Shown: piece after piece, positions 50-34,882 of the stretch
How positions within the stretch are numbered: position 1 is the stretch's first letter
Layout: the number at the start of each line of letters is the position of its first letter
IMG/VR virus record: IMGVR_UViG_3300046542_000320
Coordinates: 1-35,832 of that record
From: a virus
Length of the DNA stretch: 35,832 nucleotides
Direction: 5' to 3' (one strand)
Notes under the pieces: model-generated
Told to the model about the DNA's origin: nothing
The model's input: only the letters and a program-made list of their open reading frames with translations
Databases searched by the model: none
Translations under genes and position numbers: made by a program

Positions 50-127
<78 letters not shown>

Positions 128-1164: not shown

Positions 1165-1584
1165 GGCACTTCTCCCTGCATGCAGGTAATTGCCCGCCAA
1201 AAAGATCATGCGCGTTTTGGAAAACACACCAAAACCCACGTTTTCCAGTTTTTTTCCCAATGATTCCTGGGCTTCCAGCTACACACATCCGCGCCGGCCA
1301 TGTAGCGCGGGTGTGCAACCGCGCTTCATTTCCTTTCAAAACTTTGCACTCTGTGCAATTGCCAATCGCCTGCAGAGCCCCACGGCCCGCCTGGGCTGAA
1401 GGTTCGTTTGCACTACATCGGGATTTGCACAAAAAACGGACGCAAAGCCCGTCGGCGGGAGGGGGATAAGTGCTTTTTTGAAGGTTTTTTTCTTGGCGTG
1501 ACGATTTTCGTCGGGGGCTAGCCCTCATCGGTCGTGCATGGTTTTCATCGGACGGCCATAGCCAACTCACACCACTGCGATATA
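1165..1584. other. Gene-free region with TTGCAC half-sites
   Basis: The reading frames here look unnatural (very Ser/Arg/Pro-rich, no ribosome site), so I see no gene. The 5-base core of TTGCAC/GTGCAA repeats at 1313, 1344, 1353, 1408 and 1425. Two of these form the 15-base palindrome TTGCACtctGTGCAA (1344-1358). Two others are the 7-mer TTTGCAC at 1407 and 1424. A CCCG-TCGG-CGGG hairpin near 1449 followed by two T-runs (about 1475 and 1486) could end a transcript. The half-sites may bind a regulator of the SOS cassette that follows. Confidence 0.4.
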
Positions 1585-1600
1585 CTGTTTATACATACAG
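1585..1600 (+). promoter_or_regulatory. LexA (SOS) box
   Basis: CTGTTTATACATACAG matches the consensus CTGT-N8-ACAG exactly, with an AT-rich core. A TATACT hexamer at 1581-1586 overlaps its left edge and could be a -10 box, so LexA bound here would block the promoter of the gene starting 32 bases downstream. No other such box was found in the window. Confidence 0.85.
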
Positions 1601-1631
1601 TTATTTTTGAGTGTGACTGGGGTGTTTTGTG

Positions 1632-1883
1632 ATGATCGAGAAAAACGGTGAGGCGCCGCACGCAAAGACGACAGCGCTTGCGCAATGGAACGTTCTTCTG
1701 CAGGACGAGATCGCGCTGCTTACTGCGCCTGGGATCCGCCACAAGGAGCTCTTAAGACAGGCCCACGCGTTGCATCGAAATGGAATCATCGATAGCGACG
1801 ATCTCAGCGACCTTTTAGAGCAGGCAGATGGAGCATTGGCCTACGCCGTGGAAGCACTGATTGACCGCCAGAGTGGCGAATAG
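1632..1883 (+). CDS. SOS-controlled small protein, candidate antirepressor
   Basis: This 83-residue (84 if the GTG at 1629 is used), acidic, helical protein has no membrane segment or signal and directly follows a perfect LexA box. GGGGTG lies about ten bases before the start. I do not recognise a named domain. The sequence shows two helical stretches with a charged middle (IIDSDDLSDLLEQADGAL). The phage repressor lacks the self-cleaving domain through which phages such as lambda sense DNA damage, so a LexA-controlled phage gene is the natural trigger for induction, as Tum is in phage 186. An alternative is an SOS-induced cell-cycle or lysis helper. Role is inferred; the gene itself is well supported. 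Confidence 0.75.
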   Translation: MIEKNGEAPHAKTTALAQWNVLLQDEIALLTAPGIRHKELLRQAHALHRNGIIDSDDLSDLLEQADGALAYAVEALIDRQSGE

Positions 1884-1896
1884 GACGGGGTAGATC

Positions 1897-2193
1897 ATGC
1901 ATATGCTCGTAACCCCTATGCGGCGACAAGGCGTGGCCTTGACACCACAAGAGCGGCGCCGCTATCCAGCAATCAAGGGGAATGTGATGGTGAACTCTGA
2001 AAATAATGTTGAGCTCGGCCGCAGCGCGAACGTCGCTCGCGTCGCAGTGGGGTTACCCAATGACCCTGACCCTTTACCTCGGCTGCTAGATGCAACATTG
2101 GCCGGAATGGCCATTACTGGGTTTGTGCTGAGCGGCATCGAATACATCGACGGCTGTGCTTATGCGCAGTCTTGGTGGTGCCGCCTGGAGTAG
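1897..2193 (+). CDS. Second gene of the SOS cassette, 98 aa
   Basis: This begins 13 bases after the preceding stop, behind the strong ribosome site GGACGGGG, so it is almost certainly cotranscribed from the LexA-controlled promoter. The ATG at 1897 gives better spacing (about 5) than the one at 1903. The N-terminal third is basic (MRRQGVALTPQERRRYP) and the C-terminal part is hydrophobic with aromatic residues (ATLAGMAITGFVLSGIEYI and YAQSWWCRLE); the hydrophobic stretch is short for a membrane span. Family unknown. It may act together with the upstream protein. Confidence 0.65.
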   Translation: MHMLVTPMRRQGVALTPQERRRYPAIKGNVMVNSENNVELGRSANVARVAVGLPNDPDPLPRLLDATLAGMAITGFVLSGIEYIDGCAYAQSWWCRLE

Positions 2194-2367
2194 GCGTCTC
2201 CATCAAACTCAAGGTTTTTTGTTCCGTTAGGTTTTTTCGGTCCAACCGTTGACGGAAGCCTCGATCATCACTCACCTTGGCGGAGAACCGTCGCTGCTAG
2301 CGAGGGTTTGCTTTGCCAGCAGCACATTAAATTTGGAATGAACCAATCAGGTAAGAGAGGGAAATCT

Positions 2368-3042
2368 ATGGGCGAAATCAATGAGCTGTTTCGGTATTCT
2401 AGCCAAAAACACAACGATAACTTATTGAATCACGGCAATCTGCGTGTTGGCACGCTCTACGACTTCAGGAAGAGCGAACACAAGCGGGGGATCGCAGACC
2501 CCACCGAAGGAACGAAAACTGTCAGCCACGCAATCACGGAGTGGCATCAGAACGCTGAAATCCCCGGATCACCAAGTATCGACCAACAAGCTGTAGATTT
2601 ATCTCGCTTATTTGGCTCAGGCTCAGGAAACAGCATAAAGGGAATCACACTGGTTACCCCATTTGAAGATAGTGATTGCTTTATACATTGCACATCTCTG
2701 AAGTTTGGACGAGATGTCCTGGAAGAATTCGAAGATGCTGAGACCTGCGTAAAAATTTCCCGACCCTGGGTTTTTTACGAAACACTGACAAAGCTAATCA
2801 ATGCAGAAGCAATGGAAGTCGACCCGCCATTATTTGGAATAGTCAAATATCAATCACGAAGTGAAAAGTTTGACCCTAATCACTCCTACCAGTCAGCAAC
2901 CTTGATTAAAGAAGAGATTTTCGCACCGCAATTTGAGTTCAGGGCTATCTGGTATCCCCGCGACAAAAGAATTATGCGAGTGGAACCATACATAGTCACA
3001 AATGAAGCGCTCAAAGAGTTTTGCACCGAAGCTCAGCTGTAG
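2368..3042 (+). CDS. AT-rich cargo (moron) protein, 224 aa
   Basis: This start (MGEINELFRYSS) is chosen because GAGAGGG lies eight bases upstream; longer starts at 2308 and 2338 lack this. Base composition and codon use are visibly more AT-rich than the flanking phage genes, which points to recent acquisition. The protein is soluble, without signal or membrane segment. The order of motifs, LFRYSS near the N-terminus, GNLRVGTLYDFR around residue 25-35 and an FEFRAIW segment near the C-terminus, loosely recalls DUF2971-type proteins; this is a weak resemblance. It is a single gene set between the SOS cassette and the late terminator, the sort of slot where P2-type phages carry exclusion genes such as tin and old. 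Candidate defence gene, function unknown. Confidence 0.8.
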   Translation: MGEINELFRYSSQKHNDNLLNHGNLRVGTLYDFRKSEHKRGIADPTEGTKTVSHAITEWHQNAEIPGSPSIDQQAVDLSRLFGSGSGNSIKGITLVTPFEDSDCFIHCTSLKFGRDVLEEFEDAETCVKISRPWVFYETLTKLINAEAMEVDPPLFGIVKYQSRSEKFDPNHSYQSATLIKEEIFAPQFEFRAIWYPRDKRIMRVEPYIVTNEALKEFCTEAQL

Positions 3043-3055
3043 CACAACAAAATAA

Positions 3056-3079
3056 AACATGGCCCAAAAGGGCCATGTT
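3056..3079. terminator. Bidirectional terminator between cargo gene and late operon
   Basis: A perfect 10-pair stem, AACATGGCCC (3056-3065) with GGGCCATGTT (3070-3079), has an AAAA loop. On the minus strand it is followed by a T-rich tail (TTTATTTTG), so it ends the whole leftward late operon. It also lies 13 bases after the plus-strand stop at 3042 and can stop that transcript less strongly. Confidence 0.88.
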
Positions 3080-3087
3080 CTCAAATG

Positions 3088-3855
3088 CTAAACCGCTACC
3101 CCCAATCGACTCATTCTCTTTCGCATACTCGCCACGACCTGAGAGAGCTCAAGGTCCGACAGGAAGGCCGAGTAAATAGCCACAGCGGAAATATCGACCT
3201 CAGCGCCAAAACTAGTGGTCGCACTACCGATGCGATGCTTGGCATCGGAAAGAATACGCGACGTGGCCAGAGTCCCGTCCCGGCGAATCCCTCGAGTAAT
3301 GTTTTGAACGATGTTCACGCCGGACGCCGCGACACGGATCACCCGAATGCCCCAGTCAGTTGGCACGTCCGCCGCCAGGTCCAGGGCGCCAATATCAGCG
3401 TTGGTGCCAGCTGTGTTCAGCCGGCCGCCTGTGGAGGTGAGAGTGGTTGGGTTCCGATGATACAAAGACGTGCCCAGCGCCACGCCCGTGTAGCCGGCAG
3501 GAATCGACGCACCGTAGCGGTTGCCCACGTAATAAGGGGTATTGGCGTCACCGCCTGCCGATGCACCCTCGGGAATAGGCGCCGCGGCTTTGCCTATTAC
3601 GATGATGGTCTGGTCAGCCGTTTCACTGACCTGCGTCTGCAGGAAGTTGGTCATCCCCTTGAATCGACCGTGAGTCGTGAAGGCCTGCGGAGCGCCCGTG
3701 ATGATGGCGTCCCCTTTCCCAACAGCGCGGTTAAAACTGAATCGAGTCGGGTCAGTATCGAATGTAAACCATGCTTCCAGACCCCGTGAGACCGGTGGGC
3801 GGACCTTGGCATTCCATGGAGCGGTCACACCTGGTGCAGTAATTGTTGAACCCAT
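3088..3855 (-). CDS. Lectin-like tail tip/appendage protein, 255 aa
   Basis: This is the last gene of the leftward late operon, 16 bases after the SGNH tail protein. The N-terminal PPVSRGLEAWFTFD and C-terminal AVAIYSAFLSDLELSQV segments match the pattern of concanavalin-like (LamG-type) jelly-roll domains, where a 'glav.w.f' opening and an 'iyn..Ls..Ei' end are typical. No signal or membrane segment is present. The distal position beside a carbohydrate-active tail protein suggests it binds cell-surface sugar. It is the kind of gene that varies between related phages. Domain call is from motif shape only. Confidence 0.7.
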   Translation of the reverse strand: MGSTITAPGVTAPWNAKVRPPVSRGLEAWFTFDTDPTRFSFNRAVGKGDAIITGAPQAFTTHGRFKGMTNFLQTQVSETADQTIIVIGKAAAPIPEGASAGGDANTPYYVGNRYGASIPAGYTGVALGTSLYHRNPTTLTSTGGRLNTAGTNADIGALDLAADVPTDWGIRVIRVAASGVNIVQNITRGIRRDGTLATSRILSDAKHRIGSATTSFGAEVDISAVAIYSAFLSDLELSQVVASMRKRMSRLGVAV

Positions 3856-26823: not shown

Positions 26824-27174
26824 TTACTTCGACTGTCGAGCAGCATCGTCGGCCATGGCTTTAAGGAATCGACGAATCGCCTCTTGGTCCCCTGGAGTGA
26901 TGCTTCTGTATTGCTGGACCAGCAGATCTTCAACGTCGCTGAGCGCGTCCACCGCCAATGTGGTGCGCAAGCCATTGAGGATATAGGGGATGTCAAAACC
27001 GTATTGACTTGCGACTTTACTCAGATAAGACGCCGTCGCATCACTCGTTCCAGCCTCGTAATTAGCTTGGGTCCGTTTGGCTATCCCAAGCGATTCTGCG
27101 ATCTCGTTCTGCGTCAAAGCGCAACGCTTACGTTCTTCCTGCAGTCGGGAGCCTATCTCTTCGGAAAGGTGCAA
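26824..27174 (-). CDS. Phage repressor, XRE family, no protease domain
   Basis: The 116-residue protein has a Cro/CI-type helix-turn-helix (about 9-60: RLQEERKRCALTQNEIAESL, then SLGIAKRTQANYEAGTS) and a helical C-terminus of about 50 residues (DLLVQQYRSITPGDQEAIRR). There is no S24/LexA-type autocleavage domain. The first usable start in frame is a TTG at 27174, since a TGA lies just upstream. It faces the Cro-like gene across an operator region with phased TGCAT/TGCAC sites. It should hold the prophage silent; release must come from an antirepressor or another route. Confidence 0.88.
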   Translation of the reverse strand: MHLSEEIGSRLQEERKRCALTQNEIAESLGIAKRTQANYEAGTSDATASYLSKVASQYGFDIPYILNGLRTTLAVDALSDVEDLLVQQYRSITPGDQEAIRRFLKAMADDAARQSK

Positions 27175-33355: not shown

Positions 33356-33568
33356 ATGGGGAATTCAAGCAGTGACGTTCTCAATTTTGAGGACCTGCAG
33401 CGCATCACGGGCTACCAGCGCCGGTCAGACGTAGAACGGACCCTGCTCGAACAGGGCATTCGCATGTTCCGTGGGCGCACGGGGCCATGGACTACCATTG
33501 ACTTAATCAACCGGGCCGGCGGCGTAGGGCCAGGCCGGCAGGAGCGTTACGACGCCGACATCCTATGA
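33356..33568 (+). CDS. DUF4224 protein, Xis-like
   Basis: The 70-residue protein starting at 33356 (MGNSSSDVLNFEDLQRITGY) has the DUF4224 pattern: an N-terminal 'l..eel..iTGy.r....r.Le..GI' and a GPWTT end. DUF4224 proteins sit directly before tyrosine integrases and are presumed to act as excisionases or regulators. The alternative ATG at 33326 lies in the terminator stem and lacks a ribosome site, so it is not chosen. It overlaps the integrase by four bases. Confidence 0.75.
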   Translation: MGNSSSDVLNFEDLQRITGYQRRSDVERTLLEQGIRMFRGRTGPWTTIDLINRAGGVGPGRQERYDADIL

Positions 33569-34737
33569 AGAAAGCCCGTAAACGGAAGCACAATCCGCAT
33601 ATCCCAGCCCACATCGATCAAGCCGCGCTCCCCGCGGCTATTTACTTTGACCAACGAGGCTCAGGGATTTGGTACACCTCTCACCGTGATGAAAATGGCA
33701 AGCAACGTCGGCGCAACGTTGCCTCTGCCGACACGACGATGGCCGAGCTGCACCGCATCATGGACGAGATGAGCAACACGGATCGCGATACGCTGAGCTA
33801 CCTGTGCCAACAGTTTCATGAAAGCCTCAAGTTCAAGGGGCTGTCGCCACGCACCCAAGACGATTACAGCTACTGCCGTGACGTCCTGGTCAACCAAGAC
33901 ACCAAGATGGGTAAGCCCTTGGGTGATCTGGCCGTCCGTCGTTTCTCCCCCGCCCTGGTGCAACGCTTGGTCGACAAGATCGCCGGTGAGGGCACCCCTT
34001 CAAAAGCTGCTCACGTGCTGCGCTACCTACGCCGTGTGCTGCAGTGGGGCAGGAACCGTGACTACCTAGACACCAATCCTGCCTTGGGCATTGAATCACC
34101 GGCCGAACGGAAACAGCGCCGGTTGCCAGCGGTAGAAATTATGGAAACCTTGATCGACCGGGCCAAGGCATTCGGGCGTCTGCATCGAAATGAGCCAAAC
34201 AGCTGCCCTGTTTACCTGAGCATCGTGATGGAGCTGGCCTATCTTTGCCGGCTCCGGGGGATCGAGGTAGTGACCCTGACCGATGCTAATGAGCTCGAGG
34301 AAGGTGTGCAGACCAACCGGCGCAAGGGCAGCCGCGACAACATCGTGCGCTGGACCCCGCGCCTGCGTGCCGCCTGGGACGATGCCAAAGACTACCGAAC
34401 CAAGATCTGGACGGGTCGCAGCTTCCCAACACCGATCCATCCCCAGCGGCGCCCCCTGATCGTGAGCAGCCATGGTACGGCCCTGAGCAAGTCGGGATTG
34501 GACACCGCATGGCAGCGTTTCATGACAAAGGCGATCGAAGCTGGTGTGCTCCTCGAGGAGCAACGCTATGGACTCCACGACCTCAAGCGGCGCGGGATCA
34601 CCGACACGCCAGGGAATCGGGCAGATAAACAGCAGGCCAGCGGGCACCGTGACGAATCCATGCTTGATATTTATGACCTCAGCCTTCCTTTGGTAGACGC
34701 CTCCTCAACGCCAAACCCCTCTAAACCCCTCGCGTAA
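33565..34737 (+). CDS. int: Tyrosine-type integrase
   Basis: The 390-residue protein has a basic N-terminus, an arm/core-binding region with SPRTQDDYSYCRDVLVNQ and ALVQRLVDKI (about 90-175) and a catalytic domain. Catalytic residues: R231 (CRLRGIEV), K254, H338 (GLHDLKRRG), H361 (SGHRDE) and Y370 (DIYDLS). At the second Arg position (HxxR) there is K341 instead, followed by two Arg, a common variant in phage enzymes of this type. It catalyses integration and excision at the tRNA-Thr anticodon loop. The stop lies in an arm repeat. Confidence 0.95.
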   Translation: MKKARKRKHNPHIPAHIDQAALPAAIYFDQRGSGIWYTSHRDENGKQRRRNVASADTTMAELHRIMDEMSNTDRDTLSYLCQQFHESLKFKGLSPRTQDDYSYCRDVLVNQDTKMGKPLGDLAVRRFSPALVQRLVDKIAGEGTPSKAAHVLRYLRRVLQWGRNRDYLDTNPALGIESPAERKQRRLPAVEIMETLIDRAKAFGRLHRNEPNSCPVYLSIVMELAYLCRLRGIEVVTLTDANELEEGVQTNRRKGSRDNIVRWTPRLRAAWDDAKDYRTKIWTGRSFPTPIHPQRRPLIVSSHGTALSKSGLDTAWQRFMTKAIEAGVLLEEQRYGLHDLKRRGITDTPGNRADKQQASGHRDESMLDIYDLSLPLVDASSTPNPSKPLA

Positions 34738-34835: not shown

Positions 34836-34882
34836 CTTGTAATCAGTAGGTCCCGGGTTCGATTCCTGGTGCCGGCACCATA
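34836..34882. repeat. attR: attR core (3' half of tRNA-Thr)
   Basis: This is the second copy of the 47-base core, identical to 81-127. Only the part from the anticodon loop to the CCA end is present, so it is not a functional tRNA. DNA to its right is the original host flank. Confidence 0.93.

Follow-up and report, generated by a model that had tools for sequence, protein, structure and literature searches.

What do two small genes behind a LexA box do at the end of a prophage? Phage genes under LexA control are generally given one of two readings, antirepressor or umuDC-like cargo. The preliminary description of this locus took the former reading, and proposed that the first gene encodes a Tum-type antirepressor directed against the repressor of the same prophage. 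Here we consider this proposal together with its alternatives, using conservation of the operator, constraint on the two genes, their neighbours in other genomes, and the repressors with which they occur. The window below is the whole stretch of DNA that was analysed, 35,832 nucleotides.

Prophage and position of the cassette

The window is a complete P2-like Pseudomonas prophage, with genes for the tail fibre, tape measure, sheath, capsid, scaffold and terminase. The features used in the analysis are as follows.

81..127, no strand: attL core (3' part of tRNA-Thr), 47-bp repeat
1559..1586, plus strand: promoter-like site TAGCCA-16-TATACT, whose -10 element overlaps the LexA box
1585..1600, plus strand: LexA (SOS) box CTGTTTATACATACAG, perfect CTGT-N8-ACAG, conserved in register in relatives
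1632..1883, plus strand: gene 1, 83-aa protein, predicted to be all-helical, phrog_6137 family
1897..2193, plus strand: gene 2, ATG start at 1897, 98-aa protein, predicted to be mostly beta, phrog_5560 family, the constant member of the module
26824..27174, minus strand: short HTH repressor, 116 aa, HTH_3/HTH_19 matches only; the target proposed in the preliminary description, outside the module considered here
33565-34737: integrase gene
34836-34882: attR, the second copy of the 47-bp att repeat in tRNA-Thr

The att repeats bound the prophage, and therefore the cassette, situated about 1.5 kb inward of attL, adjoins attP and the integrase gene in the circular phage genome. Two other ORFs are found in its vicinity. 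The 130-aa ORF at 711-1103 (phrog_9349/phrog_16042), beside attL, also occurs in several relatives, including L317; it is a predicted ORF without an assigned function. The 244-aa ORF at 2308-3042 (phrog_13198), immediately 3' of the cassette, shows weak conservation in some relatives and is an accessory gene.

The LexA box and the promoter

There is one perfect CTGT-N8-ACAG site in the window, CTGTTTATACATACAG. As 0.46 sites are expected by chance, the motif by itself is weak evidence, and the deciding evidence is its conservation among relatives. In 70 of the 77 related viral loci with sufficient upstream sequence, a perfect box is observed in the same register and at the same distance before gene 2, and in the other seven the box has this position but a single mismatch. 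The TATACT -10 element overlapping the box is conserved across the 70 aligned loci. Since the box is conserved in register in the relatives, we accept the predicted operator as genuine; in this respect, the preliminary description, which placed a perfect box ahead of two small genes, is borne out.

A separate candidate, an SOS route via a LexA box near the repressor, was rejected: the stricter Pseudomonas-like form CTGTNTATNNATACAG does not recur elsewhere in the window when up to two mismatches are tolerated.

The two proteins

Gene 1 starts at GTG 1629 or at ATG 1632, the length of 83 aa being counted from the ATG. Its stop is separated from the ATG of gene 2 by 13 nt, hence the genes are close without overlap. 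Initially described as coupled, they are indeed two real, closely spaced genes, but not overlapping ones. The median dN/dS (about 0.17 for gene 1 and about 0.07 for gene 2) indicates that both are under purifying selection.

Gene 1 belongs to phrog_6137 (E-value 2.3e-20) and gene 2 to phrog_5560 (1.4e-33), with HMM matches over most of each protein, and the relatives of gene 1 are spread, by HMM membership, over phrog_6137, phrog_19595 and phrog_8717. The statement that the genes are of unknown family needs correction: both fall in catalogued phage families, which are listed without a function. No match to gene 1 was found by tblastn in the phage collection, and PADLOC assigned no defence family to the cassette. 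In the freely accessible literature found, neither a link between these families and LexA nor the set of partners given below is described.

Gene 1 is modelled as a four-helix protein (pLDDT 84). For gene 2, the model is a beta-rich fold; the best of five models has pLDDT 88.5 and the others are lower, so that the five disagree in confidence. Neither predicted fold has a significant structural match in PDB, and that of gene 2 has none among viral models. The likenesses of gene 2 to PH/RanBD-like barrels (best Z 6.0) and of gene 1 to helical bundles (best Z 8.6) do not exceed what common arrangements give, and were set aside. A likeness of gene 1 to Hha, noticed by eye in the sequence pattern, found no support: Hha is absent from the Foldseek, VIA-align 2 and PDB HMM lists, although absence there is no proof.

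Distribution and neighbours of gene 2

Gene 2 is present in 95 of 399 sampled Pseudomonas species genomes and in 11 of 398 genomes of the Burkholderiaceae-family sample. Among 98 non-redundant loci, 51 have a perfect LexA box at most 75 nt from the gene 2 start. In 17 more, a perfect box is in register but another gene stands between it and gene 2, and a further seven show either a box with one mismatch or one that precedes a unit of ImuA, UmuD or gene 1. The same scan produced no box in 23 loci, some of them decayed or truncated and some from distant Burkholderiaceae. The operator is therefore conserved across unrelated elements carrying gene 2. One of these is the filamentous Pf phage PfAC02b, where the gene 2 homologue (L005, 2797-3087) has a LexA box 25 nt upstream. 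In this phage the match extends upstream of the annotated ORF4 start, and annotated Gabija genes are situated nearby. In the ABYL01 contigs of Burkholderia sp. H160 (L144, L146, L148, L151, L152), a single genome has several copies or fragments of gene 2, most of which lack a recognisable LexA box.

Relatives of gene 1 flank gene 2 in both orders, upstream in 22 loci and downstream in 25. Hence this is a reassorting partnership rather than one frozen operon.

Other neighbours are known SOS repair genes, the linkage being observed in the relatives and not in the window itself. A gene of the SRAP (HMCES/YedK) family, identified by a Pfam SRAP match (1.6e-48), is divergent from gene 2 at about 100-140 nt in 11 loci. 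In pAN, PG1 and L132, SRAP is located upstream of gene 2 in one operon, and the scan up to 250 nt from SRAP revealed no recognisable LexA box there. UmuD adjoins gene 2 in L435, L443 and L444, and in L143 the genes for SRAP, umuD, umuC, gene 1 and gene 2 stand in a row, gene 2 being frameshifted. On a plasmid-like Caballeronia contig with ParA/ParB-like genes (L131, 6754-7790), the order is LexA box, ImuA, gene 2, the ImuA assignment being by NF033429 (221 bits against the cut-off of 150). On this contig gene 2 occupies the place where imuB would be expected. SRAP has been tied to the neighbourhoods of Pol V, DinB and ImuA-ImuB-DnaE2 and to prophages (PMC3765255), and the list of gene 2 partners fits these published associations. 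At that, any SOS gene is expected to neighbour genes with LexA boxes, and therefore the neighbours show the regulon and not the activity.

The end region in sister prophages

In sister prophages without the cassette, different genes with LexA boxes occupy the region toward a record end. UmuD-like genes are situated behind LexA boxes near the record end in G047, G056, G065, G075 and G086, and umuC was confirmed in the three records that were fetched, G047, G065 and G075 (L317, L318 and L319, respectively). In G006 (L031), umuDC and the cassette are both present. In G080 and G081, the LexA box precedes a gene for a 238-243-aa protein of phrog_19595 (L314 from G081, 2447-3207; L315 from G080, around 3547), with an N-terminal part resembling gene 1 and CxxC motifs at the C-terminus; gene 2 is absent there. 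From these arrangements we infer that the end region may be a slot for swappable SOS cargo, with the exact insertion point aligned in some of the records only.

Repressors of the cassette-carrying prophages

The domain search yielded no S24 domain in the whole record, as had been claimed for the repressor. Together with the conservation of the box and the dN/dS values, this supports the earlier statement that a real two-gene cassette is under LexA control in a prophage with a non-S24 repressor. A LexA box combined with such a repressor is what a Tum/GfoA-type antirepressor would require, and the layout is that of the known model, 186 p95-LexA-tum-orf97. The Gifsy prophages are a further precedent: their antirepressors are encoded away from the immunity region, downstream of a dinI homologue in a unit under LexA control, and the repressors are small and non-cleavable (PMC3121763).

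Most prophages with the cassette have short repressors, a full-length relative of the repressor from the window being present in 28 of 41. However, full S24 repressors are found in four of the 41. The complete phages pAN, PG1 and Medea1 likewise combine a gene 2 homologue with S24-domain proteins whose length, 247-283 aa, is that of cleavable repressors. For comparison, we considered 50 sister prophages chosen by the capsid or primase, independently of the cassette. Gene 2 is absent from 44 of them, and a CI-size S24 repressor is encoded in just one of these 44. Thus non-S24 repressors do not require the cassette. The frequency of CI-size S24 repressors, 4 of 47 cassette carriers against 1 of 44 prophages without gene 2 (Fisher p 0.36), does not differ significantly and is if anything higher with the cassette, with the reservation that the IMG/VR records behind the sister-prophage counts may be incomplete.

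Nor does the cassette follow the repressor sequence. In 26 prophages, the distances of the repressor and of gene 1 barely correlate (Mantel r 0.19), the value between gene 1 and gene 2 being 0.65. Cassettes with 99/99%, 96/96% and 90/96% identity (gene 1/gene 2) occur with repressors that are 50%, 48% and 38% identical, respectively, and conversely, repressors with 95-97% identity occur with gene 1 proteins that are just 57-63% identical. Co-inheritance with a cognate repressor type is therefore not observed, with the caveat that some antirepressors are promiscuous: those of Salmonella are able to act on non-cognate repressors (PMC3121763), so that weak co-inheritance is not fatal to the antirepressor reading. 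Neither protein is similar to 186 Tum (hhalign probabilities 0.1-0.2).

Function of the cassette

The sequences establish that a LexA operator overlaps a promoter, that both genes are under coding constraint, that the cassette is mobile among phages whose repressors are unrelated, and that its relatives are linked to repair genes. As the relatives move between very different phages beside DNA-repair genes, the cassette looks like a portable damage-response add-on. We conclude, with some reserve, that it is probably a portable LexA-repressed SOS accessory operon at the att-proximal end of a P2-like Pseudomonas prophage, and that its target is the host damage response and not the repressor of this phage. 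RecA filaments would cleave the host LexA, and gene 1 and gene 2 would be made in the lysogen alongside the host SOS genes. Their products might then intervene in the host damage response, with RecA filaments, single-stranded DNA, error-prone repair or stalled forks as the point of action, and either the lysogen or the induced phage would benefit. The pair would work alongside prophage induction without switching off the phage repressor. We propose that gene 2 could provide the core activity, with gene 1 as a helical adaptor replaceable by other SOS proteins.

A bolder version, possible but tentative, is that gene 2 might be the core of an SOS module that is unrecognised yet very widespread in the mobile elements of Pseudomonas, with occurrence in about a quarter of the species sampled. 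It would represent a new fold family that joins SRAP, Pol V or ImuA at sites of DNA damage, and would make phages and mobile elements direct contributors to the host damage response and mutation rate.

Two other functions seem rather unlikely. One is a growth or division brake, or a toxin-like effector, induced by SOS: the pair would halt division or metabolism of the damaged lysogen, giving time for phage maturation or repair. The model here is SulA, the SOS division brake. The two genes are small and LexA-controlled, in many prophages they follow the lysis genes or adjoin att, and ImuA, one of the gene 2 partners, is a SulA-related protein. On the other hand, neither gene 1 nor gene 2 is similar to SulA or to any toxin family in Pfam, NCBIfam, PHROGs and PADLOC, and no obvious membrane segment is seen by eye in either protein.

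The other, which we also consider improbable, is a host-directed SOS modulator serving mainly the phage. Such a protein could, for instance, regulate RecA filaments as DinI does, thereby tuning SOS and with it the induction of any resident prophage. The independence of the cassette from the repressor type fits a host target, and DinI-like proteins are encoded in the same SOS operons as antirepressors in 186 and Gifsy (for Gifsy, PMC3121763). However, gene 1 and gene 2 show no similarity to DinI, with no DinI match in Pfam, and the occurrence of gene 2 with ImuA on a plasmid-like contig needs no phage role.

Antirepression, in which, once LexA is cleaved, gene 1 (or gene 2) would bind the short HTH repressor and so induce the prophage, has the smallest chance of all given the repressor comparisons and the ties of gene 2 to SRAP, UmuD and ImuA, and we call it no more than unlikely in view of the non-cognate action of the Salmonella antirepressors.

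Two uncharacterised families that are widespread in Pseudomonas prophages emerge here as constant members of the phage-borne SOS regulon, and their repair partners are interchangeable. Should gene 2 act on repair or mutagenesis, prophages would tune the DNA-damage response of their hosts in many environmental and plant-associated pseudomonads. A more general caution is that a LexA box and a non-cleavable repressor are insufficient on their own to infer an antirepressor, since most sister prophages with non-cleavable repressors do without the cassette.

Comparison with known systems

The closest layout is that of p95-tum-orf97 in phage 186 (and in Fels-2 and PSP3), where, as in the cassette, LexA represses an operon of two genes that a P2-like phage carries outside its immunity region. 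The 186 operon, which was read directly, follows replication gene A, whereas the cassette lies beside att, on the tail side. The proteins differ as well, showing no sequence similarity to Tum, and the cassette, unlike the 186 operon, is found with many unrelated repressors, including those with S24 domains.

The LexA-dinI-antirepressor operons of Gifsy (GfoA, GfhA, GftA) share with the cassette small LexA-controlled proteins and prophages with short non-cleavable repressors. In contrast to them, the cassette has no match to an antirepressor or DinI family and is not co-inherited with a repressor, while its homologues extend to a filamentous phage and a plasmid-like contig.

Finally, SOS cargo of phages and plasmids (umuDC-type genes, HumD-like UmuD, SRAP) is not homologous to gene 1 or gene 2. 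Nevertheless, the cassette shares with it the LexA box, the carriage by mobile elements, the prophage end region, and physical linkage in the relatives.
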